Source: a virus
Virus record (IMG/VR): IMGVR_UViG_3300007345_000237
Location: 1-25,855 of that record
Length of the DNA: 25,855 nt
Strand: one strand, 5' to 3'
Positions 1,667-25,855 of this stretch are shown here, one piece after another; position 1 is the first letter of the stretch, and every line of letters begins with the position of its first letter. The position numbers were made by a program, and so were the translations under genes. The notes beneath the pieces were generated by a model. It was not told where the DNA came from and ran no database searches. It saw nothing but the letters and a program-made list of their open reading frames with translations.

Positions 1667-1830
1667 AATGCCCTGCGATAATATGGGTATTTGACAGTAA
1701 AACAGGCGAGTATGTTTGTTGGATATGTAAAGCACGATTTAAAAATATGAAGGTAAGCGGCTCACCTTTTGAAAAAGATTTAAAGAAATACTGCAATTCG
1801 TCGAAGGCTGTTAAAGGTTCATCGAAATAA
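1663..1830 (+). CDS. Small Cys-rich protein, TTG start (putative zinc-binding)
   Basis: A 55-aa ORF with no ATG. It opens with TTG inside the TTTTGA that also holds the primase-helicase stop, so translation would be coupled. The predicted peptide begins (M)KCPAIIWVFDSKTGEYVC and carries a CWIC pair, suggesting a small zinc finger with Cys3, Cys19, Cys22 and perhaps Cys44. The C-terminal third is rich in Lys and Ser. Its last codons contain the two TCGAA boxes of the next promoter (1800-1826), so gene end and operator overlap. A closely linked small zinc protein next to a primase could be a replication accessory, but that is inference. The main doubt is the non-ATG start. Confidence 0.45.
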   Translation: MKCPAIIWVFDSKTGEYVCWICKARFKNMKVSGSPFEKDLKKYCNSSKAVKGSSK

Positions 1831-1862
1831 AATATTTGCAATAGTTGGAAGTAGTAGTTTTG
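1800..1862 (+). promoter_or_regulatory. Promoter P0 with paired TCGAA boxes
   Basis: TTCGTCGAA (GTCGAA at 1800) and TTCATCGAA (ATCGAA at 1821) are direct repeats 21 bp apart. The -7 box TAGTTTTG at 1855-1862 fits Bacteroidota TAnnTTTG and starts 34 bp after the second box, the same geometry as the other copies at 3178, 3757, 9739 and 10999. No good -33 TTTG lies at the usual spacing; the nearest is at 1835-1838. AATATTTG at 1831-1838 is an alternative -7 box with poorer spacing. It should drive the gene at 1884, whose ATG is 22 bp from the end of the box. Confidence 0.6.
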
Positions 1863-1883
1863 GTTTTTACAACAGTTTTGGAC

Positions 1884-2165
1884 ATGGAGAGTAATTTAAC
1901 GGATTTGAAAAGTAAACAAATGGAAAAGAAACAAGAGATATTACAACTATTTAATGAAGTCGGGGTAAAAACTCATAGCGATGCATGGGATAAGGTAATA
2001 GAAGAAGAAGATTGGGATATGATAGCAGATGAGATAGTGAAATTATTCTCTATGTCTGATGTTGTAGGGCAAGGCGAACAGTTTTATTGCAAGAAAGGAA
2101 CTTGCAATGAAGAAGAACAGTGTAATCATTGCTGGAATATTGAAAACCCGCCAAATGTTGTCTAG
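1884..2165 (+). CDS. Small acidic protein of unknown function, C-terminal Cys cluster
   Basis: A 93-aa protein that I do not recognise. The N-terminal two thirds is acidic and probably helical (for example VIEEEDWDMIADEIVKLF). The C-terminus has four cysteines in about 17 residues (FYCKKGTCNEEEQCNHCW), a plausible metal site. An upstream TTG at 1845 would extend the frame but falls inside the promoter, upstream of the -7 box. ATG 1884 lies 22 bp after the -7 box, as in two other copies of this promoter, so I prefer it. An internal ATG at 1920, preceded by an A-rich AAAGTAAACAA stretch, is an alternative start giving 81 aa. It stands alone behind its own promoter and ends in a small hairpin, which suggests independent expression. 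Confidence 0.65.
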   Translation: MESNLTDLKSKQMEKKQEILQLFNEVGVKTHSDAWDKVIEEEDWDMIADEIVKLFSMSDVVGQGEQFYCKKGTCNEEEQCNHCWNIENPPNVV

Positions 2166-2184
2166 CAATAAAATTGCCTACAAC
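2157..2184. other. Hairpin at end of small gene (weak terminator candidate)
   Basis: GTTGT and GCAAT on the left arm can pair with ATTGC and ACAAC on the right, with an AAA loop and a small internal bulge. It spans the TAG stop of the preceding gene. No T-run follows, so it is a poor intrinsic terminator; it may be a processing or mRNA-protecting structure. Confidence 0.25.
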
Positions 2185-2230
2185 AGATAATATACAAACC
2201 TAAACATCGTATTAACTACTTATGAATTAG

Positions 2231-2238
2231 TAATTTTG
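2231..2238 (+). promoter_or_regulatory. Possible -7 box for the lysis genes
   Basis: TAATTTTG fits TAnnTTTG exactly and lies only 4 bp before the amidase ATG, so a transcript from it would be nearly leaderless. No convincing -33 element or TCGAA box pair is at the expected distance. The preceding 60 bp has no gene. Confidence 0.3.
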
Positions 2239-2242
2239 CTAA

Positions 2243-2647
2243 ATGAGAGCGATTAACAAAATAGTTATTCATTGTAGCGCAAGTCATCAAAACGTAGATG
2301 TAGACGACATTAGAAGATGGCACGTAAATGAACGTAAGTGGAGCGATATAGGCTATCATTATGTAATTACTTCTGATGGTGATGTACAAGAAGGTAGACC
2401 AATGTATAAAGCAGGGGCGCACGTTGCAGGGCATAACCATGATTCAATAGGGATATGTTGGGTAGGTGGTTATAAGGGAGTTGATAATAGAACAGATGCG
2501 CAAAAATTGGCTATGCGTGAGTTAGTGATGCGTTTAATAGTTGAATTTGACATTGAGCCAAATAACGTCTTAGGTCATTGTGATTTTGAAGGAGTTACAA
2601 AGACTTGCCCTAACTTTGATGTTCAAAATTGGTTTTTTAATGAGTAG
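2243..2647 (+). CDS. N-acetylmuramoyl-L-alanine amidase (endolysin, PGRP / T7 lysozyme type)
   Basis: A 134-aa single-domain endolysin of the Amidase_2 family that cleaves the bond between N-acetylmuramic acid and the L-alanine of the stem peptide. Zinc ligands are visible as His10 (IVIHCSAS), His112 (GHCDF) and Cys122 (KTCPNFD). The catalytic Tyr38 (IGYHYVI) and Lys120 match the T7 lysozyme pattern. Length is close to the T7 protein, with no cell-wall-binding extension, as expected for a phage of a Gram-negative host. There is no signal peptide, so export depends on the holin, whose ATG overlaps this gene's stop (AATGAGTAG). A dual role in transcription inhibition, as in T7, cannot be judged. 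Confidence 0.93.
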   Translation: MRAINKIVIHCSASHQNVDVDDIRRWHVNERKWSDIGYHYVITSDGDVQEGRPMYKAGAHVAGHNHDSIGICWVGGYKGVDNRTDAQKLAMRELVMRLIVEFDIEPNNVLGHCDFEGVTKTCPNFDVQNWFFNE

Positions 2648-3059
2648 TGTTAAAGACTTAATAAAAGGATTCACCCCACAAGGAATAGCCGAAGGTTTAA
2701 TTGGTAAAGTTGCAGATGGTGCGAAAGACGTTATTACCAACGTTCAAGACAACCGAATGACAATCGAACAAGGATTGCAGGAAATTGAAAAGATAAAGAT
2801 ACAAGCGCAACAAGACGGTAACAAAGAAATTACAGCACGTTGGCAAAGTGATATGAAGAGCGATAGTTGGCTTTCTAAGAACGTTAGACCGCTTGTATTA
2901 ATGTACATGGTGTTTTGTACTACTCTGTTGGTTTTCATTGATGCAGGGGTAATATCTTTCGATGTAAAGAGCAATTGGATTGATTTATTGCAATTGGTGT
3001 TAATGACCGTTATAGCGGCTTATTTTGGTGGTAGGTCTTATGAGAAAACAAAGTCTTAG
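2640..3059 (+). CDS. Holin, 3TM / GTA-type family
   Basis: A 139-aa inner-membrane protein that should form the lysis lesion releasing the amidase. The N-terminal half is amphipathic and charged (residues 1-75), followed by SDSWLSKNVRPLVLMYM, a signature seen in holin-of-3TMs proteins. Hydrophobic segments are at about 82-103 and 113-131, and the end has the FGGRSYEK motif. ATG 2640 overlaps the amidase stop. A longer reading from 2580 would place about 20 extra residues over the amidase coding region and is unlikely. Directly downstream, and overlapping its last 20 bases, is another small ORF. No recognisable spanin gene follows. Confidence 0.88.
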   Translation: MSSVKDLIKGFTPQGIAEGLIGKVADGAKDVITNVQDNRMTIEQGLQEIEKIKIQAQQDGNKEITARWQSDMKSDSWLSKNVRPLVLMYMVFCTTLLVFIDAGVISFDVKSNWIDLLQLVLMTVIAAYFGGRSYEKTKS

Positions 3060-3195
3060 CATCGAATACAAAAGCCCTTACTACTACATCTTTAAGCGAA
3101 TAGACAACTATAAAAAGCCTAAAGAGTTGTGGAAATCGAAAAATCTTAATGAGATTAACATCAAGTTTAAGCAGTTCATCGAAGCAAAGGCTTAG
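3040..3195 (+). CDS. Small basic protein overlapping the holin end
   Basis: A 51-aa ORF starting ATG at 3040 inside the last codons of the holin and reading in another frame. The product is Lys- and Tyr-rich (SPYYYIFKRIDNYKKPKELW), has no membrane segment and no cysteine, and ends with KQFIEAKA. The stop overlap with the holin suggests translational coupling in the lysis transcript. It is not an evident spanin: there is no lipobox or TM. Its 3' end carries the first ATCGAA box of promoter P1. I do not recognise the family. Confidence 0.55.
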   Translation: MRKQSLSIEYKSPYYYIFKRIDNYKKPKELWKSKNLNEINIKFKQFIEAKA

Positions 3196-3240
3196 TTTAT
3201 CGAAATAAGTTTGAAGCTTTTAAATCTTGTCTTACATTTG
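3178..3240 (+). promoter_or_regulatory. Promoter P1 with paired ATCGAA boxes
   Basis: TTCATCGAA (ATCGAA at 3178) and TTTATCGAA (ATCGAA at 3199), 21 bp apart, precede TACATTTG at 3233-3240, a full match to TAnnTTTG. A TTTG at 3210-3213 lies 19 bp upstream of the -7 box, so this copy also has a proper -33 element. The leader that follows (ATTTATCAAAAACAAACAACG) is shared with other copies and ends 22 bp later at the ATG at 3262. Confidence 0.72.
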
Positions 3241-3261
3241 ATTTATCAAAAACAAACAACG

Positions 3262-3402
3262 ATGAGACTTACAACACAAAAAATCAAACAAATATTAAGA
3301 TTAATTGAACAAGGAGAAAGCTACGATTTAATAGCCTATAAATTTGACAAAGAAGTAAGGGATATAAAAAGAGTAGAGCGTAGATACATTTTAACTAAGT
3401 AA
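3262..3402 (+). CDS. 46-aa helix-turn-helix-like protein, candidate regulator
   Basis: A tiny basic protein. Residues 7-36 (KIKQILRLIEQGESYDLIAY and on) have the spacing of a homeodomain-like or sigma-region-4-like helix-turn-helix: a first helix, a Gly turn, then SYDLIAYKFDKEVRDIKRVE. A longer reading from a TTG at 3211 would run through the -7 box and leader, so ATG 3262 is preferred. It is the only gene between promoter P1 and an intrinsic terminator. Because its own promoter carries the box pair, autoregulation and control of the other box-bearing promoters are possible. That is inference; the HTH is judged by eye. Confidence 0.68.
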   Translation: MRLTTQKIKQILRLIEQGESYDLIAYKFDKEVRDIKRVERRYILTK

Positions 3403-3448
3403 TTAATTAACCCTTTAAATAACCTTAAAACCTTTAATGCTTGTGCAG

Positions 3449-3482
3449 CCACCTTTTAGAAAAAGTCCGAAAGGTGGTTTTT
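3449..3482 (+). terminator. Intrinsic terminator after the HTH gene
   Basis: CCACCTTT (3449-3456) pairs with AAAGGTGG (3470-3477), followed by a five-T run. It ends 8 bp before the next ATG at 3490, so that gene depends on read-through or an unseen start. Confidence 0.85.
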
Positions 3483-3489
3483 AAAACCT

Positions 3490-3768
3490 ATGAAAACCTT
3501 ACACCACCATAGCCACTTAGCACCCGAAGAAATCCAAAACATTAAGGATACTATCGAGTTTTGCCGAGCTAACACAATGCGCAGAGTTAGCGTGTTAGGT
3601 TATGCGCAGATTAATTGCCCTTTGGCTTATGCCGAATACTTTAAAAGGCGTAACCCTTTTAAATCATTGCACGAATACTTTAATATGATTTGGGGTTATG
3701 AAACTAAATACTACTACGATTTAAAACAGTGTTTTAACTACCGAGAAAAGCAACTCATCGAAAATTAA
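3490..3768 (+). CDS. 92-aa protein of unknown function
   Basis: An unrecognised basic, aromatic-rich protein. It opens with MKTLHHHSHLAPEEIQNIKD, has a probable helical centre and a Tyr/Phe-rich C-terminal half (SLHEYFNMIWGYETKYYYDL). No membrane segment, signal or clear metal site is seen apart from the N-terminal His run. It starts 8 bp downstream of a strong terminator and has no TAnnTTTG box in between, so expression may be set by termination efficiency (attenuation-like). Its last codons carry the first ATCGAA box of promoter P2. Confidence 0.7.
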   Translation: MKTLHHHSHLAPEEIQNIKDTIEFCRANTMRRVSVLGYAQINCPLAYAEYFKRRNPFKSLHEYFNMIWGYETKYYYDLKQCFNYREKQLIEN

Positions 3769-3820
3769 AAGCACTTCATCGAAATTGGGGTAAAGTAGGG
3801 TAAAACGTGCTTTATATTTG
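3757..3820 (+). promoter_or_regulatory. Promoter P2 with paired ATCGAA boxes
   Basis: CTCATCGAA (ATCGAA at 3757) and TTCATCGAA (ATCGAA at 3778), 21 bp apart, precede TATATTTG at 3813-3820. The second box starts 35 bp before the -7 box. There is no -33 TTTG at 19-21 bp; the nearest TTG (3785-3787) is 25 bp away. The leader AACTATCAAAAACAAACAAAG ends at the ATG at 3842. Confidence 0.75.
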
Positions 3821-3841
3821 AACTATCAAAAACAAACAAAG

Positions 3842-4015
3842 ATGACAATTTCAGAAGTTTATACTAAAAAAGGCGAGTTTTATCACACATTCGGCACTCC
3901 CGAAACTGCCAAATGGAAAGCAGAAAATATACATGGGCATAAAGTAGAATGGGTAAAAGAGTGTAAAAGTACATTTAAGCAGATAAAAGAGTACAATCTA
4001 CCATTTATTTATTAA
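3842..4015 (+). CDS. 57-aa protein of unknown function
   Basis: A small basic protein starting MTISEVYTKKGEFYHTFGTP, probably a short beta-sheet plus helix. The pattern resembles small phage proteins that bind nucleic acid, but nothing diagnostic is present. A TTG-initiated form from 3818 would include the conserved leader (NYQKQTK) and is an artefact of the leader sequence. It is the first gene behind promoter P2 and is followed 41 bp later by the next small gene. Confidence 0.65.
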   Translation: MTISEVYTKKGEFYHTFGTPETAKWKAENIHGHKVEWVKECKSTFKQIKEYNLPFIY

Positions 4016-4022
4016 CCTACGC

Positions 4023-4030
4023 TATGTTTA
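4023..4030 (+). promoter_or_regulatory. Weak -7-like box with shared A-rich leader
   Basis: TATGTTTA matches TAnnTTTG except for the last base and is followed by AAACAAACAAAAAGTAAAAAAATG, the same type of leader as in the box-bearing promoters. No TCGAA boxes are present, so it may be a degenerate copy or simply a translation leader. Confidence 0.3.
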
Positions 4031-4056
4031 AGTTGAAACAAACAAAAAGTAAAAAA

Positions 4057-4254
4057 ATGAAAACAAAAACAACTAAAATAGTAAAAGGCAAGTATATTCA
4101 TAATAACACACAATACTATTTATTAAAAGAAGGCTCAGATTGGTTAGCTGTAAATGAATGTACAGGAGAGTTGTATTTTACAGCTAATAGTTTAAAACAA
4201 TTAATAAAAATGTGTGATAACGAATATGAATTGTTATCATGTGATTTAAACTAA
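4057..4254 (+). CDS. 65-aa protein of unknown function
   Basis: A small protein starting MKTKTTKIVKGKYIHNNTQY, Lys-rich at the N-terminus and more acidic at the C-terminus, with two cysteines near the end and one in the centre. The visible pattern is beta-rich (YYLLKEGSDWLAVNECTGEL). The reading from ATG 4024 would add eleven residues made of leader sequence; ATG 4057 after AAAAAAA matches the leader layout of neighbouring cassettes. It lies within the P2 transcript, upstream of the terminator at 4409. I do not recognise it. Confidence 0.62.
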   Translation: MKTKTTKIVKGKYIHNNTQYYLLKEGSDWLAVNECTGELYFTANSLKQLIKMCDNEYELLSCDLN

Positions 4255-4260
4255 TTACTC

Positions 4261-4377
4261 ATGAAAAAATGGCAAGAATATATCTTAAACAAAGTACAAA
4301 AGCATGATGTAAAGTGTAAGTGTTTCTTTTGTGTTGAAAACAAGAAGTTAGCGCAAAAATATGATAATGTCAAGTGA
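4261..4377 (+). CDS. 38-aa Cys-rich miniprotein
   Basis: A very short ORF, ATG at 4261, 6 bp after the previous stop. The peptide begins MKKWQEYILNKVQKHDVKCK and contains a CKCFFC cluster, suggesting half of a zinc site. Tight spacing and the matching direction support a third gene in the P2 mini-operon. Length alone makes this uncertain. Confidence 0.45.
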   Translation: MKKWQEYILNKVQKHDVKCKCFFCVENKKLAQKYDNVK

Positions 4378-4408
4378 TTAGTACGTTTTCATCATATGTT
4401 TTGTTTGT

Positions 4409-4445
4409 GCCCTGTACGTTGATGGTGTGCAGGGCTTTTTTTTAT
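4409..4445 (+). terminator. Intrinsic terminator upstream of the terminase genes
   Basis: GCCCTGTAC (4409-4417) pairs with GTGCAGGGC (4427-4435) with one wobble and a 9-nt loop, followed by a run of nine Ts and then ATTTT. It closes the small-gene block, and the terminase promoter box starts within 16 bp of the stem. Confidence 0.88.
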
Positions 4446-4450
4446 TTTGT

Positions 4451-4458
4451 TACCTTTG
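4451..4458 (+). promoter_or_regulatory. -7 box of the terminase operon
   Basis: TACCTTTG is a full match to TAnnTTTG. The following leader has tandem ATTA units (AATTAATTAATTAATC). No -33 TTG at the usual distance is seen because the terminator stem occupies that place, and no TCGAA box pair is present, so it is likely a different promoter class from P0-P4. Confidence 0.5.
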
Positions 4459-4491
4459 AATTAATTAATTAATCTATATTAATTCTAAATA

Positions 4492-4764
4492 GTGCTCGAC
4501 GGTCGAAAAAATAACGGTGGACATTCCACAAAAGGTAAAGCAGGGCGAAAGCCTAAGATTGACGAAATCAAGAAAATAGAAATGATGGACTCCATAGCTT
4601 CACCTGAAGAAGTATGGGCGGAGCTTTGGAAGGTGTGCAAAAAAGGAAATACAAACGCTTTGCAAACTTGGGTCAACCATAGATTCGGTAAACCTAAAGA
4701 GCAAAAGGATATTACAACCAACGGAGAAAACATAAGCATACCTGCAATAACATTTGTTGATTAA
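4492..4764 (+). CDS. terS: Terminase small subunit (GTG start)
   Basis: A 90-aa DNA-recognition subunit of the packaging motor. The N-terminus is basic and Gly-rich (HSTKGKAGRKPKIDEIKK), followed by a helical part (SPEEVWAELWKVCKKGNTNALQ) and the typical RFGKPKEQ segment before a variable tail. This matches small subunits common in Bacteroidota phages. The frame has a stop just upstream and no ATG before residue 30, so GTG 4492 is the only start that retains the domain. Its stop overlaps the start of the large subunit, as expected for a TerS-TerL pair. Confidence 0.8.
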   Translation: MLDGRKNNGGHSTKGKAGRKPKIDEIKKIEMMDSIASPEEVWAELWKVCKKGNTNALQTWVNHRFGKPKEQKDITTNGENISIPAITFVD

Positions 4765-5962
4765 TAAGAAATATCAAGAGCTATTTAGGCACGATTCACG
4801 TTACTATATTGTAACAGGTGGCAGGGGTTCATCAAAGAGTTTTTCTGTTACTGTTTATTTAGTTGATTTACTCTTAAGACATAAAGGGCACAAAGTGCTA
4901 TTTACTCGATACACATTAACAGCGGCAAACAAATCAATTATTCCTGAGTTTATTGAAAAGATTGAGCTTTTAAACGCTTTACCTTTTTTCACCATAACGC
5001 AAAACGAAATCAAATGCACCTTAACAGGTAGCTCAATAATATTTGCAGGGATTAAGACAAGTTCAGGTAATCAAACAGCAAACTTAAAGTCATTGCAAGG
5101 GGTTAGCATTTGGGTCTTAGAAGAAGCAGAAGAGTTAATTGACGAATCAATATTTGATAAGATAAATTTATCTGTAAGGCAAAAAGGGGTTCAAAACAAA
5201 GTAATTCTTATTCTTAACCCTACAACAAAAGAGCATTTTATTTATAAGCGATTCTTTGAAGATATGAACGTTCAAGCTGGGTACAATGGCACGAAAGACA
5301 ACACGACATACATACATACCACTTACCTTGATAACGTGGCTAATTTAGATGAATCCTTTTTAAAAGATGTTGAGCGTATCAAAAAAACAAGACCACAAAA
5401 ATATAAGCATCAAATACTCGGTGGATGGTTAGACCGTGCAGAAGGTGTGGTTTTCGATAATTGGAGCATTGACGAAACATTTCCACAACATCTACCTGTT
5501 AGTTATGGGCAAGACTTTGGATTCTCAAATGACCCAACGGTATTAGTTAAAGTTGCAATTGAAAAAGATACTATCTATGTTCAATCTATCTACGGTAAAA
5601 CAGGGTTAAGCACAAAGGATATTTACGAGCTAAACAAAGCCGAAACAAAAGACAAATATTTAATTATTGCGGATAGTGCAGAGCCAAGATTGATACATGA
5701 ACTTAGGCGAATGGGCAACAATATAAAAGAGTGCATTAAGGGTAAAGATTCAATTGTAACAGGCATAAAAAATATGCAAGATTATCACATCAAGGTAATT
5801 AACTCACCTGAGATAATTAAAGAGCTTAATAATTACGCATGGCACGATAAAAAAAGCAATGTACCTATTGATGCTTACAACCACTACATAGATGCGATTA
5901 GATACTGTGTAGGTGACTTGTTAAGAAAGCAAAGGGGTGGTTCTCATTTCATTGGTAAATAA
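4754..5962 (+). CDS. terL: Terminase large subunit (ATPase-nuclease)
   Basis: A 402-aa packaging motor. The ATPase domain shows Walker A GGRGSSKS (22-29), a Walker B strand ending in VLEEAEE with Glu123-Glu124, and the coupling motif LNPTT (154-158). The C-terminal RNase H-like nuclease has acidic residues Asp254 (QDFGFSND), Asp307 (IADSAE) and Asp380 (NHYIDAIRYC). Length is normal for PBSX-type large terminases. Initiation is at TTG 4754 or TTG 4757 in CATTTGTTGATTAA, overlapping the TerS stop; there is no nearby ATG, so translation must be coupled. It is followed by a separate promoter for the glycosyltransferases. Confidence 0.95.
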   Translation: MLINKKYQELFRHDSRYYIVTGGRGSSKSFSVTVYLVDLLLRHKGHKVLFTRYTLTAANKSIIPEFIEKIELLNALPFFTITQNEIKCTLTGSSIIFAGIKTSSGNQTANLKSLQGVSIWVLEEAEELIDESIFDKINLSVRQKGVQNKVILILNPTTKEHFIYKRFFEDMNVQAGYNGTKDNTTYIHTTYLDNVANLDESFLKDVERIKKTRPQKYKHQILGGWLDRAEGVVFDNWSIDETFPQHLPVSYGQDFGFSNDPTVLVKVAIEKDTIYVQSIYGKTGLSTKDIYELNKAETKDKYLIIADSAEPRLIHELRRMGNNIKECIKGKDSIVTGIKNMQDYHIKVINSPEIIKELNNYAWHDKKSNVPIDAYNHYIDAIRYCVGDLLRKQRGGSHFIGK

Positions 5963-5967
5963 ATTTA

Positions 5968-5990
5968 TATCTTTGTTATAATTAAAGGAG
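5968..5990 (+). promoter_or_regulatory. Promoter and SD-like site for the glycosyltransferase operon
   Basis: TATCTTTG at 5968-5975 matches TAnnTTTG. TTATAATT follows, then AAAGGAG at 5984-5990, one base before the ATG. The stretch TTTGTTATAATT is identical to that in the minus-strand promoter near 20845, so these two may form a second promoter class. The SD-like sequence is unusual among the A-rich leaders of this window and is very close to the start. Confidence 0.5.
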
Positions 5991-5991
5991 T

Positions 5992-7383
5992 ATGAGTCAA
6001 GTAAAGAAGCTAAAACAAGAGCCAAAAAAGATTCTTATCTATGGTGACTTTCCAAGTGTGCCGACAGGATTTGCAACCGTTACCCGCAACTTAGGGCAAG
6101 CGTTACACAAAAAAGGCTACATTGTAGACCAAGTAGGGATTAACCTAAACGAAGGTGATTTGGTCAAAGTGCCACATTTACGCTATTATCGCGCCGCAAG
6201 GTCTAACCGTGACCAAGATACCTTTGGTAGGCAAACGTTGTTAAATGCTATTAATGGCATGAAAGGCACAACGGATAAATTCTTTAATGATTACGACTAT
6301 GTATTTTTATTGCAAGACCCTTTTATCGTTGATGGCTTAGGTGAAAAGCTAAAGCAAATGCAAGCGCAAAGAAAGCAAGCAGGGGCAAAGGTTTTTAAAA
6401 CAATCTATTACATACCTATTGACGGTGAGCAATATGATAAATGGCTCATTAACTTAAATAACTTTGATTTAGTAATACCATTCAGCCAATACGGCAAACA
6501 ACAGATTTTAGATACTGTTAATGAGTTGATTGAGTATTACGATGAGTTTAATAGCCACGTTGATAATCAATATCTTTTAGAAAAATACAATCCACAAGAC
6601 TTTGAAAAGCAAAAGCATAATGTCATACAAAGAATTAGCCAACTTCGCGCGGTGGGTGAGAAGGCAAGCACGTACACTCCTGTTTATCACGGAAGCGATA
6701 CTAAGGTCTTTAAACCAATTCTACCGAAAGAGATAGAAGAGTTTAAAGAGAAGCTATTTCAAGAGAATAAAGATAAGTTTATAATCGGATGTGTTAACCG
6801 TAACCAACCGCGAAAAGATATTCCAAGAGTAGTTGAGATATTTAACAATTACAGGAAGCAAAACAAAGAAGCTTTCTTATACCTTCACATGGATGCTAAC
6901 GATGCAATGGGGTTAGACCTTAGAGCGTTGTGTAATGGCTTTGGAATGATTGAAGGTAGAGATTACGCTTGCATGAATACTTATGGTCTTGATTGGTCTA
7001 AGGTAAGCCCCGAAATGCTTAATTTGATTTATAATTCTTTAGATGTAATGTTAACGGCAACACTCGGCGAAGGGTGGGGGCTAACAATTACCGAAGCAAT
7101 GGCGGCATATTGCCCTGTATTAGCTCCAAAGAATACAACCATACCTGAGATACTCGGCGAAGGTCGCGGGTTCCTCTATGAGCTTGACAAGGACTATAAC
7201 ACGCATACTAAAGGAGATTTTACAAGGCGTAGGCATAGGGGCAACATAGAGAGTGCTTGTTTTTGGCTAAATGAGATTTATGTTAATGGTGCTGAGAGCG
7301 AATGTGAGAAAGCATTAGAGTGGGTGCAACAACACACATGGAGCATTGAGATGAGTAAAATGATAAAGCTGATTGAAGAATGA
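5992..7383 (+). CDS. Glycosyltransferase, GT-B fold, family 4-like
   Basis: A 463-aa enzyme expected to transfer a sugar from a nucleotide donor. The N-terminal Rossmann domain shows the acceptor-side loop SVPTGFATVTRNL (22-34). The C-terminal domain has a strand-loop CVNRNQPRKDIPR and the GT4 EX7E motif with Glu360 and Glu368 in GEGWGLTITEAMA, followed by TIPEIL. A long helical insertion (about 170-225) is visible between the halves. No signal or membrane segment, so it works in the cytoplasm. It is the first of three overlapping glycosyltransferase genes placed between terminase and tail genes, and its own promoter suggests independent timing. Acceptor (virion protein, host glycan or DNA) is unknown. 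Confidence 0.88.
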   Translation: MSQVKKLKQEPKKILIYGDFPSVPTGFATVTRNLGQALHKKGYIVDQVGINLNEGDLVKVPHLRYYRAARSNRDQDTFGRQTLLNAINGMKGTTDKFFNDYDYVFLLQDPFIVDGLGEKLKQMQAQRKQAGAKVFKTIYYIPIDGEQYDKWLINLNNFDLVIPFSQYGKQQILDTVNELIEYYDEFNSHVDNQYLLEKYNPQDFEKQKHNVIQRISQLRAVGEKASTYTPVYHGSDTKVFKPILPKEIEEFKEKLFQENKDKFIIGCVNRNQPRKDIPRVVEIFNNYRKQNKEAFLYLHMDANDAMGLDLRALCNGFGMIEGRDYACMNTYGLDWSKVSPEMLNLIYNSLDVMLTATLGEGWGLTITEAMAAYCPVLAPKNTTIPEILGEGRGFLYELDKDYNTHTKGDFTRRRHRGNIESACFWLNEIYVNGAESECEKALEWVQQHTWSIEMSKMIKLIEE

Positions 7384-8024
7384 TAGCGATACCTGTTTAT
7401 GTACGTGAGAAAAAGAATTATGAGTTGCTTGAGAAGTGTGTTAATAGTTGCCCTACACCACCTGACGGCTTTATAAATGCTTTTGATTTAGAAGATGAAA
7501 AGCTTTATAAGTTGTTTGGTAAAACTCGATTTACTGAGCGTGATGTAAATTCAGTTGCGGGAGCGTGGAACGATGCAATTTCAATGGCTGATAGGTTAAT
7601 GGATGGTTATTGTATTATAGCAAATCAAGACATACAATTCCCCAATATTACAGAGCTAAAGAATGCATCTATAAAACACGGCATTGCAGCAGCCAAAACA
7701 AAAGACGGCCAACCTGACTTTGCCCTATTCGCCGTTAACCCTGAGTTTATAAAAGAGAAGTTTGGCACATTAAGACCATTTGACGAAGGTTTTGAAGGTG
7801 CTTATTTTGAAGATAATGACTTTCGTTATCAATGCAAACTTAAAGGCATTAACATTGAGTTGGTTGATTTAGACTTTCAGCATTATGGTAGCGGTGTGTT
7901 AAAGCATGATAAAGAAGCAGCCAAAGAAAACGAACAACGGTTCAGAAAGAACCATATAAGGTACATTAATAAATGGGGTGGTATTCGTGGAGCAGAAACA
8001 TTTAAAACACCGTTTAATAAATGA
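7380..8024 (+). CDS. Glycosyltransferase-like protein, GT-A / family 2-like
   Basis: A 214-aa protein with a short GT-A layout: N-terminal strand MIAIPVYVRE, a NQD triplet at 82-84 (IIANQDIQFPN) where the family has DXD, and a C-terminal EDNDFRYQCKLKG at 144-156 resembling the ED-acid catalytic base region of GT2 enzymes, then a histidine in FQHYGSG. The lack of a true DXD makes metal binding uncertain, so activity could be altered. ATGA overlaps join it to the genes on both sides, implying coupled synthesis with the other two glycosyltransferases. Confidence 0.72.
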   Translation: MIAIPVYVREKKNYELLEKCVNSCPTPPDGFINAFDLEDEKLYKLFGKTRFTERDVNSVAGAWNDAISMADRLMDGYCIIANQDIQFPNITELKNASIKHGIAAAKTKDGQPDFALFAVNPEFIKEKFGTLRPFDEGFEGAYFEDNDFRYQCKLKGINIELVDLDFQHYGSGVLKHDKEAAKENEQRFRKNHIRYINKWGGIRGAETFKTPFNK

Positions 8025-8677
8025 TTTACGTAATAACACGAACCAACAACAGACCTGCTAAGTTTCAGGTGTGCGCTGAATCGGTGCAAGCTCAATCAAC
8101 AGAATGTGAGCATATTACTATTAGTGAGAATGTGTTGCCTACTTACCTTGAAAATGTGCAAGGCATTACAAGCGTAACGCTCAACAAATCAGACTTTGAA
8201 CACTACAACCAATACTTAGATTGGGCACTTGAAAACATAGGCAAAGAAGGTGATTACTTCGCATTTCTTGATGATGACGATTTTTATACTTCACCCAATA
8301 GCCTTAAAATTGCAATGGAGCAAGGTAGCGGTCATGATTTGATATTGTGGCGTGTTAATGCTTCTAACAATGTAATAGTACCAAGGTTAGACAGCTTTGA
8401 AAAACAGGAAGTAAAGTTTGGTGATATTAGTGGAATAGGTTTCTTAGTTCGTAAAAGTTCGTTTACTTCTGCAAAGTTTGGCAATAAGTTAGGCGGTGAT
8501 TACAACTTTTTAAAAGATGCTGTTAAGGAGTGCAAGCGTGTTAAGTGGGTTAATAAGGTGCTAAGTAGCGTTAATCCATTGTTTAGTTACGGTGCAGGCA
8601 ATGAGCAAGATGCACCAATTGAAAAAGTAAGAGAAGGTTATCAAAGAGCAATAAAACATTTATCAATATGGATTTAA
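8021..8677 (+). CDS. Glycosyltransferase, family 2-like (GT-A)
   Basis: A 218-aa protein starting with the GT2-type strand MIYVITRTNNRP, which in these enzymes opens the nucleotide-binding fold. A clear acidic DDDD cluster at 84-87 (AFLDDDDFYTS) supplies the DXD metal site. GIGFLVRKSSF and GGDYNFLKDAV probably form the acceptor side and catalytic acid region. It is shorter than typical GT2 enzymes and has no membrane helix. The gene overlaps its neighbours by ATGA on the left and 10 bp on the right, making it the last enzyme of the block. Confidence 0.8.
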   Translation: MIYVITRTNNRPAKFQVCAESVQAQSTECEHITISENVLPTYLENVQGITSVTLNKSDFEHYNQYLDWALENIGKEGDYFAFLDDDDFYTSPNSLKIAMEQGSGHDLILWRVNASNNVIVPRLDSFEKQEVKFGDISGIGFLVRKSSFTSAKFGNKLGGDYNFLKDAVKECKRVKWVNKVLSSVNPLFSYGAGNEQDAPIEKVREGYQRAIKHLSIWI

Positions 8678-8964
8678 CAGAATTAAGCCAATTAAGCGTT
8701 CCTGAGCTACGCAAAAGGGCAGAAGTAAAAGCTTTGCCTAATTACCATGCTTTAAAGCGTACTGAGATAATTAGAGAGCTAAGAAAAAAGTATGAGCCTA
8801 AGCTAACAAAGGAAGATGTATTGAGCCAATTAAAAAGCTCTCATAGGTTGCTTTGTCAAATAGTAGATGCAAGGCAAAGAGAAGGTAAAGGCTCAAGCAC
8901 TTACAAGGGTATTCGAGAGCAATTAAGAGCGTTAATTAATAAGGCTGATAAGATTGTTGAGTAG
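8668..8964 (+). CDS. Small protein with SAP / Rho-N-like N-terminal domain
   Basis: A 98-aa protein whose first 45 residues (LSVPELRKRAEVKALPNYHA, then KRTEIIRELRKKY) follow the pattern of SAP or Rho N-terminal helix-extended-loop-helix domains, which often bind nucleic acid. The rest is a basic helical tail (LRALINKADKIVE). Such proteins occur in Bacteroidota phage structural regions with unclear roles. It overlaps the glycosyltransferase upstream by 10 bp and the frameshifting gene downstream, so it sits in the same transcript. Confidence 0.65.
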   Translation: MDLTELSQLSVPELRKRAEVKALPNYHALKRTEIIRELRKKYEPKLTKEDVLSQLKSSHRLLCQIVDARQREGKGSSTYKGIREQLRALINKADKIVE

Positions 8965-9601
8965 TAGTTACATATTCGAAGGTTGGCAGTCTATAACGCT
9001 TAGACAGTTTAACACATTAACCCAACAAATACAACACTTAGAAGGTGACGAATTGGTATTTAAATTATGCTCAATTCTATTTGATGTTCACGAAACCTAT
9101 TTAAAAAAGTCGCAACCTTATTTGAAATTAAAGGAGTTTGCTACAAAGGTTTTAGATACGTTTGAAAGTTTACCTAAAAAGCAAAAATTAAATGAGATTA
9201 ACGGCTATCGTTTGCCGAAAATGATTAAACGGCTTGATGGTAGCTGGTGGAGTGATGCCACATTTGAGCAGGTGCAAGCGGTTATGAGTGAAACGCAAAG
9301 AATACAGGAAGCAACTGACAAAAGCGCAAAGCTCAATTTAGAAGGCTTTGCCTTGATGTGTGCTACATTGTTTCAAAAGAAGGGGGAAATAGTAACAGAT
9401 GAAATAATACTACAAAGAGAGCGTGAATGGCTTGAAGTGGATATGTTTACCATTTGGCAGGCTTTTTTTTTGCTTCAAAAATGGCAACGGATTACGCTGA
9501 GAGATTTAAAGCTTTATTCAAAGGTCGTAGCAATATGGCTAAAATGGCTAAACTTAGTAGAGAAGCTCAAAGGGAAGTTCAAGAGAAGCAAAACAGAATG
9601 A
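8954..9601 (+). CDS. Probable tail assembly chaperone, zero-frame product
   Basis: A 215-aa zero-frame ORF starting at TTG 8954 or TTG 8957 in ATTGTTGAGTAG, overlapping the previous stop. The opening (WQSITLRQFNTLTQQIQHL) and the following helical layout resemble tail chaperones, which bind the tape measure during tail tube assembly. At codon 170 the sequence enters GC-T9-GC (T run at 9463-9471), where T TTT TTT is an ideal slippery heptamer. Past it the zero-frame peptide becomes basic and Leu/Trp-rich with codon use unlike the phage, while the -1 frame looks normal. So the first 172 residues are surely coding; the last 43 are the unshifted end. Unlike most chaperone genes it is far from the tape measure. 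Confidence 0.6.
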   Translation: MLSSSYIFEGWQSITLRQFNTLTQQIQHLEGDELVFKLCSILFDVHETYLKKSQPYLKLKEFATKVLDTFESLPKKQKLNEINGYRLPKMIKRLDGSWWSDATFEQVQAVMSETQRIQEATDKSAKLNLEGFALMCATLFQKKGEIVTDEIILQREREWLEVDMFTIWQAFFLLQKWQRITLRDLKLYSKVVAIWLKWLNLVEKLKGKFKRSKTE

Positions 9602-9735
9602 TGCGTTTTGGCTTTTGGTATGGGGCGTTAATGGAATTAAGCCAAAGTGGTATATTCGGAACAATGGATAAGGTATTGAAAACAAATGCTATTGATGCCT
9701 TAACAGCTTTGTTTTACATCAAAGAAAAAGAGTAG
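9469..9735 (+). CDS. -1 frame extension of the tail chaperone (frameshift product)
   Basis: Reading in the -1 frame from the T9 run gives 88 further residues beginning FASKMATDYAERFKALFKG and ending IDALTALFYIKEKE, so the shifted fusion would have 260 aa. Codons here look like those of the rest of the phage (many GCT, AAA, GAA, AGC), and the frame continues 134 bp beyond the zero-frame stop. This is the G/GT arrangement of lambda-type tails. An internal ATG at 9481 could instead start a separate 84-aa protein, or a single-T error in the homopolymer could make the split artificial: ten Ts would fuse the two frames directly. Confidence 0.62.
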   Translation, partial: FASKMATDYAERFKALFKGRSNMAKMAKLSREAQREVQEKQNRMMRFGFWYGALMELSQSGIFGTMDKVLKTNAIDALTALFYIKEKE

Positions 9736-9738
9736 TTT

Positions 9739-9801
9739 ATCGAAGCTTTGGCGTAGTTTGTCTAAAATAGTTTAGTAGTTTGGTTTGGTGTAATACATTT
9801 G
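9739..9801 (+). promoter_or_regulatory. Promoter P3 with one intact and one degenerate box
   Basis: TTTATCGAA (ATCGAA at 9739) is followed 21 bp later by TTTGTCTAA (9757-9765), a decayed copy, and then TACATTTG at 9794-9801. The degenerate box starts 34 bp before the -7 box, as at P0 and P1. A TTTA at 9771-9774 is the only -33 candidate. The leader AATCATCAAACAAACAAAAAAAC and so on runs to the ATG at 9831. Confidence 0.65.
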
Positions 9802-9830
9802 AATCATCAAACAAACAAAAAAACAAAAAG

Positions 9831-10058
9831 ATGAAAAGAGTAAAAAAACCAACAACAAAACAAGAGCAAGCTTTAAGAAGTGTAAAACAAACAGAAGAGT
9901 TTTTAGATGCGGTTATGAATCATTATTTAAACCCAAATAAAGAATCATTCGATTTGACTCACTTGTATAATAAAGCTTTAGAATTAAAGAAGAACTTAAA
10001 TAGAGATTATGTATATGTTACAGTAACAAAAGAAATGGAAAAAGATTTATTCGAATAA
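9831..10058 (+). CDS. 75-aa protein of unknown function (cassette gene)
   Basis: A small basic, mostly helical protein starting MKRVKKPTTKQEQALRSVKQ, with a second helical half (LYNKALELKKNLNRDYVYVT). No recognisable motif. An extended reading from a TTG at 9780 would translate the promoter and leader and is rejected. It is the only gene between promoter P3 and the terminator at 10106, forming a self-contained expression cassette inserted between the tail chaperone and a glycosyltransferase. Confidence 0.68.
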   Translation: MKRVKKPTTKQEQALRSVKQTEEFLDAVMNHYLNPNKESFDLTHLYNKALELKKNLNRDYVYVTVTKEMEKDLFE

Positions 10059-10086
10059 TCAATAAGTATTTAAGTAATCTAAAATA

Positions 10087-10103
10087 TTTTTCTTCATAGC
10101 TAC
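10087..10103 (+). repeat. 17-nt pre-terminator repeat, copy 1
   Basis: TTTTTCTTCATAGCTAC, identical to the copy at 11322-11338. Both lie in the 3' untranslated part of a cassette transcript, 2-4 bp before the terminator stem. Confidence 0.85.
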
Positions 10104-10105
10104 CT

Positions 10106-10137
10106 AAGCCCCTATTAATTAAAGTAGGGGCTTTTTA
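10106..10137 (+). terminator. Intrinsic terminator of cassette P3
   Basis: AAGCCCCTA (10106-10114) pairs perfectly with TAGGGGCTT (10125-10133) around a 10-nt loop, then a T-run. It separates the cassette from the GT9-like gene. Confidence 0.9.
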
Positions 10138-10139
10138 AT

Positions 10140-10147
10140 TAACTTCG
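10140..10147 (+). promoter_or_regulatory. Possible -7 box for the GT9-like gene
   Basis: TAACTTCG differs from TAnnTTTG by one base and sits directly after a terminator, 53 bp before the ATG at 10201. The intervening 50 bp has only a 23-codon ORF (from 10152), probably not a gene, and ends in an A-run before the ATG. Confidence 0.3.
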
Positions 10148-10200
10148 CATCATGCCCAACCTAAAAACAAAGCAAGCAGTCGCGAGTAACAATAAAAAAA

Positions 10201-10932
10201 ATGTGGATACATCAAATACATAATTTTGGATTAGGTAATTTTATAAACTGCACAGCAGTTATTAAACGTTTAGCACAAATTAAAGAGCATCCTATTGATG
10301 TTTATTTTGATTTGCCTTTTGTAAGGGATTGTTTTAAAGATTGCGAGTTTATTAATACATTAGATAAAAAACTAAATACAAAGCCATTATTTACAAGTGG
10401 TTTAACCAATACAAGCCATAACAATAAGCCCGACTATCAATATATTTTTGAACAAGTCACGGGCGAAAAATGGAACGGTCAAAGATGCTATATTGACGAG
10501 CCTAAAGGTTACGACATACCAAAAGTGCCTTATGTAGTTTTTGTTCATGGCTCAGGTAATGAATCAAGGCAATACTTAGATACAAAAGAAGTTGATTCAG
10601 CTACATTGCTAAATGCTGTTAAGGTTTGTAAGAAAAAGAACTTTGAAATAGTATTTACAGGCAGTATAAACGACTTACAGCGTAACACATGGTTACAACC
10701 TTATGCAAAGGGAATTGGCAACGTTAAACACGCTTTATCTTTGCTTAGTGGTGCAAGTTTGGTAATAGGTAATGATACAGGGTTAATCCATGCAGCGGGG
10801 GCAATGAATAAAAAGATGTTTGTGTTTTGGAAGAATACGCAGTTGCCGCGTTGTATGAATAGCGGGTTAGATTGTACCTACTTAATGCAAAGCGAATGGC
10901 ATAGAGTCAACGATTTAATATTAAGTTTGTAG
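10201..10932 (+). CDS. Glycosyltransferase, family 9 (heptosyltransferase)-like
   Basis: A 243-aa GT-B protein. The N-terminal motif FGLGNFINCTAVIKRLAQ resembles the Gly-rich acceptor loop of ADP-heptose:LPS heptosyltransferases. The C-terminal half shows VFVHGSGNESRQ and the family signature GNDTGLIHAAGAM (190-202), followed by VFWKNTQLPR. It is about 100 residues shorter than cellular heptosyltransferases, mainly in the N-terminal domain, as often seen in phage versions. There are terminators on both sides, so it is a single-gene unit, unlike the three overlapping glycosyltransferases upstream. It could act on LPS core-like sugars or virion glycans; the donor is unknown. Confidence 0.82.
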   Translation: MWIHQIHNFGLGNFINCTAVIKRLAQIKEHPIDVYFDLPFVRDCFKDCEFINTLDKKLNTKPLFTSGLTNTSHNNKPDYQYIFEQVTGEKWNGQRCYIDEPKGYDIPKVPYVVFVHGSGNESRQYLDTKEVDSATLLNAVKVCKKKNFEIVFTGSINDLQRNTWLQPYAKGIGNVKHALSLLSGASLVIGNDTGLIHAAGAMNKKMFVFWKNTQLPRCMNSGLDCTYLMQSEWHRVNDLILSL

Positions 10933-10965
10933 TTCTTTAGTTTTGATGTTTGTTTGATTTGATTT

Positions 10966-10992
10966 AAGCCCTGTTTAACGACAGGGCTTTTT
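10966..10992 (+). terminator. Intrinsic terminator after the GT9-like gene
   Basis: AAGCCCTGT (10966-10974) pairs with ACAGGGCTT (10981-10989) around a 6-nt loop, followed by Ts. The first ATCGAA box of P4 begins 7 bp later. Confidence 0.9.
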
Positions 10993-10998
10993 AATTCA

Positions 10999-11061
10999 TC
11001 GAAGATTTAGTTTAGTTCATCGAAATGATTGATTTAGTAGGGTTAAGGCGTTTTATATTTG
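10999..11061 (+). promoter_or_regulatory. Promoter P4 with paired ATCGAA boxes
   Basis: Two perfect TTCATCGAA boxes (ATCGAA at 10999 and 11019, 20 bp apart) precede TATATTTG at 11054-11061. The second box starts 35 bp before the -7 box. The nearest -33 TTG (11029-11031) is 22 bp away. The leader AATTATCAAAAACAAACAAACAAAAAA ends at the ATG at 11089. Confidence 0.78.
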
Positions 11062-11088: not shown

Positions 11089-11316
11089 ATGAACTCAAGA
11101 ATTACAAAAAAAGTTGAATCTACAAAAAGAGTTGAATCTACAAAAGTTGACCATTTATTCTTTTACATTGAAGATATCTTTAAGGGCGAAGTATTACATC
11201 AACGTTTATATGTTAAAGAAGATAATGGCGAGTACACTTCGGCTGCTCAGTCTTACACGACATATAAAAACGAGCAAGGATATAGGAGAGCAATAAAACG
11301 AGCGCAAAACAACTAA
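11089..11316 (+). CDS. 75-aa protein with an N-terminal tandem repeat (cassette gene)
   Basis: A small basic protein of unknown function. Near the N-terminus the hexapeptide VESTKR/V is repeated, encoded by two GTTGAATCTACAAAA copies at 11113-11127 and 11131-11145, 18 bp apart. The remainder (FFYIEDIFKGEVLHQRLYVK, then a basic C-terminus) looks beta then helical. The TTG-initiated extension from 11059 is leader sequence. It is the only gene between P4 and the terminator at 11343, and is the same length as the P3 cassette product but without evident sequence similarity. Confidence 0.68.
   Translation: MNSRITKKVESTKRVESTKVDHLFFYIEDIFKGEVLHQRLYVKEDNGEYTSAAQSYTTYKNEQGYRRAIKRAQNN
11113..11145 (+). 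repeat. Tandem 18-bp repeat, two copies, in frame
   Basis: GTTGAATCTACAAAA occurs twice with an 18-bp period, adding one extra six-residue unit to the protein. The copies are identical over 15 bp, so the duplication looks recent. Confidence 0.85.
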
Positions 11317-11338: not shown

Positions 11339-11342
11339 ACGG

Positions 11343-11373
11343 AGCCTGTACTTTAATTAGTACGGGCTTTTTT
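11343..11373 (+). terminator. Intrinsic terminator of cassette P4
   Basis: AGCCTGTAC (11343-11351) pairs with GTACGGGCT (11360-11368) with one wobble around an 8-nt loop, followed by a T-run. It closes the P4 cassette before the tail genes. Confidence 0.88.
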
Positions 11374-20308: not shown

Positions 20309-20547
20309 TTTTAAGCGATAGGGAGTTAAATTACTTTGTAAGCCTGACAGGTAAATTAGATATTCATGCTTTATATGAAGCAGGGTATCTTAATGAAAAA
20401 GCAGTTAGAAACCACCTAATAAGAGAAGAATATTATAGGCTTTTGAGAAGTATGCGAAGCGGTGATGCAGTTGCAAAGTTGGCTAATGATAAGAACCTAA
20501 GCGAAATTATGGTGCATAAGATAATAGCCAACGGGAAGCACTCTTGA
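20305..20547 (+). CDS. 80-aa protein, HTH-like C-terminus
   Basis: A small protein overlapping the tape measure stop by ATGA. The C-terminal part (DAVAKLANDKNLSEIMVHKI) has the spacing of a helix-turn-helix recognition pair, and the N-terminal half looks helical with an RNHLIREEYYRLLRSM stretch. It could be a DNA-binding regulator or merely a small structural helper; I do not recognise the family. Its 3' end overlaps the convergent minus-strand gene by 51 bp, so the two messages are antisense there. Confidence 0.65.
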   Translation: MILSDRELNYFVSLTGKLDIHALYEAGYLNEKAVRNHLIREEYYRLLRSMRSGDAVAKLANDKNLSEIMVHKIIANGKHS

Positions 20548-20835
20548 TATTAAAAGAGCTACTAAATAGATGTAAGAGTTGATACGTTCATGTTTTATTT
20601 CATCTTGATTTAATTGCCTGTAAAGTTCATTATTTTGCATACCATCATGATGAAATACCATTACATAAGTTCGGGTAAAACAGATGTAAGCGTTAATAAG
20701 CATCACAAGGCTACCTAATGGAATAAAGCAAAGTAAAAAAGCCCCTGCTATTGTAATTGTTCTATTCTCTCTTCCTACCTTTTCAGTCTTTGCATCTGAT
20801 AGGTCAATACCTTGTTTGCTAATTACCGTTTTCAT
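20497..20835 (-). CDS. Small membrane protein, only minus-strand gene
   Basis: A 112-aa protein with two hydrophobic segments, about 27-52 (AGAFLLCFIPLGSLVMLINA) and 86-106 (SYIYLVALLISRVLPVGYYL), and a charged loop between them. The start at 20835 follows a minus-strand TAACTTTG box, so it has its own promoter. It interrupts the late operon in antisense and overlaps the previous gene's 3' end. Such isolated membrane genes often turn out to be prophage-expressed morons (for example superinfection exclusion), but no motif confirms that. If translated, the two TMs suggest inner-membrane location. Confidence 0.6.
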   Translation of the reverse strand: MKTVISKQGIDLSDAKTEKVGRENRTITIAGAFLLCFIPLGSLVMLINAYICFTRTYVMVFHHDGMQNNELYRQLNQDEIKHERINSYIYLVALLISRVLPVGYYLMHHNFA

Positions 20836-25744: not shown

Positions 25745-25764
25745 TCTTTAATATGCGGCTATTT

Positions 25765-25807
25765 GTCGAATTATTGATTTTTATAGTATCACATTTAGTT
25801 TATTTTG
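25765..25807 (+). promoter_or_regulatory. Promoter P5, single-box relative of P0-P4
   Basis: TTTGTCGAA (GTCGAA at 25765) is followed 35 bp later by TTATTTTG at 25800-25807, one base off TAnnTTTG. The following bases GAACTA agree with the P2 leader, and the ATG is 23 bp after the box, the distance seen at P0, P1 and P2. No second box is found 21 bp upstream. Confidence 0.5.
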
Positions 25808-25829: not shown

Positions 25830-25855
25830 ATGCCGATTTTACAAAAAGGCGAAAT
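25830..25855 (+). CDS. Start of next gene (truncated by window edge)
   Basis: ATG at 25830 opens a frame reading MPILQKGE to the end of the window. It lies 23 bp after the -7-like box of P5. Only eight residues are visible, so no function can be given. Confidence 0.5.

Follow-up and report, generated by a model that had tools for sequence, protein, structure and literature searches.

The stretch analysed here, hereafter the window, is the entire IMG/VR virus record IMGVR_UViG_3300007345_000237, a linear fragment of 25,855 bases. On one strand, it carries genes for a primase-helicase, an amidase, a holin and a terminase, a three-gene glycosyltransferase stretch, and genes for tail, protease, capsid and portal-type proteins (some of these assignments were made by position and size). 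The best cultured relative of the terminase (PBSX-type) is Nonlabens phage P12024L with 52% identity, and thus we regard the window phage as a Bacteroidota phage. A megablast search of the window against INPHARED gave no match. The records of this uncultured phage family are about 26-28 kb long, and the phage is not of the T4 type. The window contains five copies of a promoter unit, TTYRTCGAA-N12-TTYRTCGAA-N28/29-TAnnTTTG, in which a pair of 9-bp boxes precedes a -7 box. A preliminary description of this DNA had reported five such promoters with fixed geometry, each ahead of tiny genes, and all five were found within 1 bp of the places given there. The units, the open reading frames (ORFs) behind them and the terminators of the resulting cassettes are as follows.

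1797..1862, + strand: unit 1 (class 0); boxes 1797-1805 (TTCGTCGAA) and 1818-1826 (TTCATCGAA), -7 box TAGTTTTG 1855-1862
1884..2165, + strand: 93-residue ORF after unit 1, no assigned function
3175..3240, + strand: unit 2 (class 1); boxes 3175-3183 and 3196-3204, -7 box TACATTTG 3233-3240
3262..3402, + strand: 46-residue ORF after unit 2
3447..3484, + strand: terminator hairpin with a T tail, end of cassette 2 (fold -15.1 kcal/mol, z = -4.2)
3754..3820, + strand: unit 3 (class 2); boxes 3754-3762 (CTCATCGAA) and 3775-3783 (TTCATCGAA), -7 box TATATTTG 3813-3820
3842-4015, 4024-4254 and 4261-4377, + strand: three small ORFs after unit 3
4409..4443, + strand: terminator, end of cassette 3 (-16.6 kcal/mol, z = -4.5)
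9736..9801, + strand: unit 4 (class 3); boxes 9736-9744 (TTTATCGAA) and 9757-9765 (TTTGTCTAA), -7 box TACATTTG 9794-9801
9831..10058, + strand: 75-residue ORF after unit 4
10106..10136, + strand: terminator, end of cassette 4 (z = -3.4)
10966..10992, + strand: terminator of the gene preceding unit 5, directly upstream of unit 5 (z = -6.4)
10995..11061, + strand: unit 5 (class 4); boxes 10995-11003 and 11016-11024, -7 box TATATTTG 11054-11061
11089..11316, + strand: 75-residue ORF after unit 5
11341..11373, + strand: terminator, end of cassette 5 (z = -5.3)
25762..25807, + strand: possible sixth site with a single box (tentative); TTTGTCGAA 25762-25770, then a weak -7 box TTATTTTG 25800-25807

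Geometry of the paired-box unit

The two boxes start exactly 21 bp apart in all five units, and TAnnTTTG starts 37-38 bp after the start of the second box, that is, 28-29 bp after its end. Two of the ten boxes contain one mismatch (CTCATCGAA at 3754 and TTTGTCTAA at 9757). Dinucleotide shuffling of the window, repeated 1000 times, gave on average 0.005 box pairs at the 21-bp spacing and not one complete unit, compared with the five observed. When near-match boxes were paired at all spacings from 10 to 44 bp, 21 bp was the only spacing that occurred in the window (6 pairs). The sixth of these pairs, TTCATCTAA at 19262/19283 on the inverse strand, lies within a coding region and has no -7 box. 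The single-box site at 25762 has the same 38-bp distance from box to -7 box and is located upstream of an ORF starting at 25832, which, by position alone, may be the metallophosphoesterase gene F59 of relatives.

The -33 element is poor, as noted previously: of the five window copies, two have TTG at a spacer of 18-22 bp, as do 10 of the 38 distinct copies counted in all. In Flavobacterium, TAnnTTTG spans -12 to -5 (PMC9723704). With the -7 box placed in this way, the box centres fall near -45 and -66, which agrees with the activator-type positions estimated earlier. The poor -33 element together with this geometry suggests activation rather than repression. The earlier view of the box as a half-symmetric TTC-N3-GAA site, on the other hand, was not supported. 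Across 31 distinct units, for which the consensus is GCAaTTcATCGAAg...taGTTcaTCGAAAtaA...TActTTTGaatcATCAAACAAA (box 1, gcAaTTcATCGAA; box 2, taGTTcaTCGAA), the third base (C) is variable, whereas its symmetry partner, G, is nearly invariant. A half-palindromic box read by a dimer was set aside as the first choice because of this unequal conservation, and in the alignment the box is an asymmetric direct repeat. Conservation within the units is concentrated in the boxes, the -7 box and the leader.

Box 1 often lies in the last codons of the upstream gene, both in the window (3175-3195 and 3754-3768) and in relatives; unit 2, for example, has its box 1 within the end of an ORF terminating in KQFIEAKA. 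Unrelated upstream genes thus end with KQFIE, KQLIE or QFIE, and the end of the protein and the regulatory site share the same DNA. Box 2 of unit 3 sits within an AAAGCAC/GTGCTTT dyad. A general stem-loop around box 2 was considered and rejected, as it was seen in some classes only.

Small genes behind the units and their exchange

Dozens of further copies of the unit are present in related phages, spread over 17 other IMG/VR records with up to about ten in one record (G009); a relaxed search of the 18 records gave 18 sequence classes. In the phages, the units are always on the sense strand and face downstream genes. An IMG/VR scan for the exact geometry returned 26 stretches, about 19 of them from related phage records. 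A scan in which the distal box was not required, but the proximal box, the -7 box and an ATCAAA leader were, yielded 26 phage units (L005-L028 and L035), in which the distal box was an exact TCGAA 21 bp upstream in 24 cases and AACGAA in two. The scan matches L006, L008, L016, L022, L024, L029, L030 and L031-L041 (except L035) look like chance occurrences in coding sequences of unrelated contigs and were rejected.

Some variants of the unit were also observed. Some units of classes 5, 11 and 12, and the one at position 25018 of G010, carry TAnnTTTAC instead of TAnnTTTGA, and their ATCAAAC leader is unchanged. Class 10 (G009, G010, G012 and G005) has a lone TTCATCGAA box where the HTH_39 gene F34 ends, 6 bp before TATCTTTG; its units were excluded from the motif set, and the place of the box would suit repression rather than activation. 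The stretch L299 (IMG/VR 3300017989_000265; guanine plus cytosine fraction, 0.47) contains two box pairs in a similar promoter geometry with a differing base composition, and is probably from another phage lineage.

The genes behind the window units encode 38-93 residues, in accordance with the tiny genes described before, and those of the family overall are mostly ORFs of 40-100 residues. Of 20 unit-driven genes of the family, two gave PHROG matches and two gave Pfam matches; all of these are weak, and those to Pfam are also implausible biologically. A strong terminator hairpin ends four of the five window cassettes (2 to 5), while cassette 1, after the ORF at 1884..2165, has no strong terminator (fold z = -0.56). 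These cassettes resemble morons in that they have their own promoter and, in those four, a terminator, lie between core genes, and contain genes that vary between relatives.

What the preliminary description had missed is that the units are points at which different genes are exchanged. One promoter class precedes different genes in relatives, and one gene follows different classes: the gene starting with MNNTLT is found behind classes 3 and 5, as is the gene starting with MKLIES. The class 1 promoter of unit 2 precedes unrelated genes in G006/G008 and G012, and the class 4 promoter of unit 5 precedes another gene in G009/G010/G013; the class 0 promoter of unit 1 is also present in G007, and in a degraded form in G012. 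Units of about 80 bp are 74-99% identical between phages, whereas the next 110-260 bases are at the aligner background (about 0.46-0.72). For some pairs in classes 3, 8, 9 and 15, both flanks are at background. Unit 4 recurs with 86-93% identity in G003/G004/G006/G008/G009 with both flanks unrelated. Since the unit is conserved while its flanks are unrelated, it appears as a conserved joint between exchangeable parts, and homologous recombination at the units may be the route of the gene exchange. The same conservation would be expected if the pairs were structural or recombination repeats only, serving as exchange sites with no role in transcription. However, conservation is concentrated in the boxes, -7 box and leader and every unit points into a gene, so that we give this explanation hardly any credence.

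A strong terminator-like hairpin overlaps the promoter in classes 7, 8 and 9 (z from -3.6 to -7.3) and a dyad is present in class 2, whereas most classes have neither. In mycobacteriophages, stoperators and start-associated sequences are many short, oriented sites dispersed beside small genes, linked to a repressor or to gene starts. The present units share this dispersed arrangement and differ in sequence, paired geometry and presumed regulator. Another parallel is given by the promoter early stem-loops (PeSLs) of T4-type phages (Arbiol 2010 and Comeau 2014, cited in PMC4503421), which are repeated promoter units, in part overlapping terminator hairpins, involved in gene shuffling between related phages. 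The present units are likewise repeated promoters at gene-exchange points; however, the window phage is not T4-like, its promoter carries activator-type sites, and an overlap with a hairpin is clear for classes 7, 8 and 9 only.

Likeness of the boxes to LytTR sites

The core consensus of LytTR sites is [TA][AC][CA]GTTN[AG][TG]. Regulators with a LytTR domain recognise 9-bp direct repeats that are 12 bp apart and immediately precede a promoter (PMC6193735, PMC2766830), and the sites of AlgR are CCGTTCGTC and CCGTTCATC (PMC4064291). GTTC[AG]TC is common to the AlgR sites and the phage boxes. Although the preliminary description knew of no regulator with such a site, the phage units have direct repeats of about 9 bp, a spacer of about 12 bp, a GTT-C-A/G-T core like the LytTR consensus and the AlgR CCGTTC[GA]TC, and the promoter distance of LytTR-type sites; furthermore, box pairs flank LytTR genes in Bacteroidota chromosomes, as described below. 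LytTR-type response regulators of the AgrA/AlgR class are the most likely proteins to bind the phage boxes. The units share with the LytTR-type promoters (AgrA, AlgR, SilA, HdrR/BrsR and the LytTR regulatory system (LRS) operons of Bacteroides) the 9-bp repeats, the 12-bp spacer, the GTT-N-[AG]-T core and a constant position immediately before a promoter whose -35/-33 element is poor. They differ in being in phages, about ten per genome, without a LytTR gene, and in the conserved 3' half, CGAA, which the classical LytTR consensus does not have. The LRS repeats of Bacteroides are 11 bp with an 11-bp spacer (PMC6193735), unlike the 9 and 12 bp of the phage. Three consecutive boxes at 21-bp spacing were observed in L097/L098 (G006, near record positions 1678-1699) and in L083 (Niabella), and these resemble the triple LytTR operators described for CoxC and RcoM (PMC11347149).

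In 395 Bacteroidota genomes, exact pairs numbered 65 compared with 27 for the reversed pattern; in 15 genomes, a set selected for having a unit, they numbered 22 compared with 2. A LytTR domain was encoded within 4 kb at 11 of 61 fetched chromosomal sites and at none of 20 control sites. The expected number of LytTR-linked sites among the 61 is about 0.6 if random genomes, with 4.6 LytTR genes each, are the basis, and 1.7 if the selected set, with 13 each, is used; LytTR counts and E-values depend on a LytTR model that we made ourselves from 20 PF04397 hits. Several chromosomal sites lie 1.1-1.2 kb upstream of a LytTR regulator gene, which is the place of the promoter of a kinase-regulator operon. 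Pfam identified LytTR, Response_reg and His_kinase domains in the neighbours of sites L057, L050 and L062, and a LiaF-type gene at L055, where a LytTR gene is 2.3 kb downstream of the site. In a 9-kb part of the Niabella ginsengisoli chromosome (L083, G027:C5:70067-79034), six exact box pairs were found, several with nearly identical spacers.

We also analysed 40 LytTR neighbourhoods chosen without the motif, counting intergenic pairs only because coding sequences show a 3-bp periodicity. TTN[AG]TC pairs at 21 bp numbered 6, compared with a mean of 0.86 per distance. TCGAA alone was rejected as the LytTR motif, as it gave no 21-bp peak in these neighbourhoods; the TTN[AG]TC part alone gave the signal. 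In one of them (L259), a TTN[AG]TC pair at 21 bp is followed by TATTTTTG exactly 28 bp downstream. Among 21 chromosomal sites linked to LytTR genes, nine have a -7-like box 27-29 bp past box 2, compared with 0.21 per offset at other distances; for three of these nine, the spacing had been part of the selecting pattern, and for six it had not. The distance in the phage is 28-29 bp, and therefore the host sites and the phage units share a promoter architecture. Nonlabens phage P12024L has one TTN[AG]TC pair at 21 bp, without TCGAA ends. Literature searches with the letters of the box returned unrelated primers only, and those on LytTR, Bacteroidetes and direct repeats returned no paper combining all three.

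Candidate regulators and the place of the unit in the phage

In the mechanism that we propose, the unit would be a sigma-A promoter (TAnnTTTG) at which two LytTR-domain molecules would sit next to each other on the boxes, with a distance of two helical turns and the nearer one centred at about -45, and would take the place of the missing -33 element. The bound protein would be a LytTR response regulator of the host, phosphorylated by its partner sensor kinase. When the host pathway is active, about ten promoters per phage would fire together and the small exchangeable accessory genes would be expressed, and the conserved 80-bp promoter would provide the homology for swapping accessory genes, sometimes whole modules, between phages. 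Judged from sequence comparison, we consider this mechanism as a whole, host LytTR activation with exchange at the unit, to be probable. We incline, with less assurance, towards a regulon across the phage in which about ten uniform promoters are under a host LytTR system and double as docking sites for exchanged accessory genes.

The regulator is probably that of the host. No match to the LytTR domain (PF04397) was found in the 18 phage records at E-values up to 10, and since these phages encode no LytTR domain and host kinase-regulator operons share the promoter architecture, a host LytTR regulator is favoured. The likeness of the host promoters and the asymmetry of the boxes also suggest this preference. 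One alternative is a LytTR protein encoded by the phage in a stretch outside the available fragments; some phages do have such a gene, as the match of the PHROG family phrog_8810 to a full-length LytTR response regulator shows. However, the 18 records without a match apparently cover the modules for replication, lysis, packaging, head and tail, as G006 and G009 seem to do in combination, and we regard this alternative as quite improbable.

Several points weigh against a host LytTR regulator. The phage records are fragments, and a LytTR gene could sit in a missing stretch. The Fisher test of 11/61 against 0/20 alone gives p = 0.057, the LytTR gene density being the stronger test; within 4 kb, a LytTR gene is lacking at 50 of the 61 chromosomal sites, and many of the 61 probably match by chance. 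The TCGAA 3' half is not general to the LytTR sites of Bacteroidota. Sampled host genomes contain at most about seven exact pairs, usually none or one, which is fewer than in one phage genome, and thus a regulator of the phage itself could be the main user of the boxes. The phages do encode helix-turn-helix proteins, F19 (HTH_3, 1.7e-9) and F34 (HTH_39, 4.5e-11), which recur in five and four records, respectively.

The boxes might therefore be sites of such a protein, the HTH_3 protein F19 or the winged-helix protein F34 of the replication operon, acting as an activator or as a dispersed, stoperator-like repressor. Phage proteins usually run phage regulons, and the genes F9-F19-F33-F34 themselves follow a class 9 unit. 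Proteins of the Cro/C1 type, however, normally read palindromes, whereas the boxes are asymmetric direct repeats, and the same pairs occur at the same distance from a -7 box beside LytTR genes in bacterial chromosomes. We thus judge this explanation unlikely, albeit the most serious of the alternatives. The larger number of sites in the phage than in the sampled host genomes would also fit decoys, by which the phage titrates the host LytTR regulator and the promoters are incidental. Decoys would require neither the fixed 28-29 bp before the -7 box nor a place ahead of start codons, both of which the sites have, and this possibility seems very remote to us.

The use of a host two-component system by phages is already known, because cyanophage genes answer the host PhoBR system, as proposed or shown in PMC10976474 (with Zeng and Chisholm 2012 cited there). 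Phage genes are under a host response regulator in that system, as proposed here. The cyanophages differ in having an OmpR-type PhoB and other hosts, and in Pho boxes that are scattered and irregular rather than in a uniform promoter unit. A LytTR-controlled phage regulon was not found in the literature searched, the coverage of which was partial. If the regulation by a host LytTR system is true, the signalling state of the host sets the expression of the whole accessory-gene set of the phage, and, as the control element doubles as an exchange point, an incoming gene comes under the host pathway immediately. With the unit as a query, accessory genes can be sought in phages of Bacteroidota, where nearly all small proteins are without annotation, and the analysis offers a motif and geometry for LytTR sites in Bacteroidota (TTNRTC..., a 21-bp period and 27-29 bp to TAnnTTTG).

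A few further observations concern the phage and its relatives. No integrase was recognised among the phage proteins examined. In a contig of an Ekhidna metagenome-assembled genome (L051), a unit lies between phage genes related to F4 (44%) and F12 (48%); this is a relative of the window phage binned with Ekhidna, and gives a hint of the host group. Between the terminase and unit 4 (5992-8677), the window has three adjacent genes, two of which match PHROG glycosyltransferase/moron families and one of which matches none; in relatives of the other virion type, the portal occupies this place. Gene calling retained a single long ORF on the reverse strand of the window (20497-20835, minus strand), which has no PHROG match and is conserved in G010.

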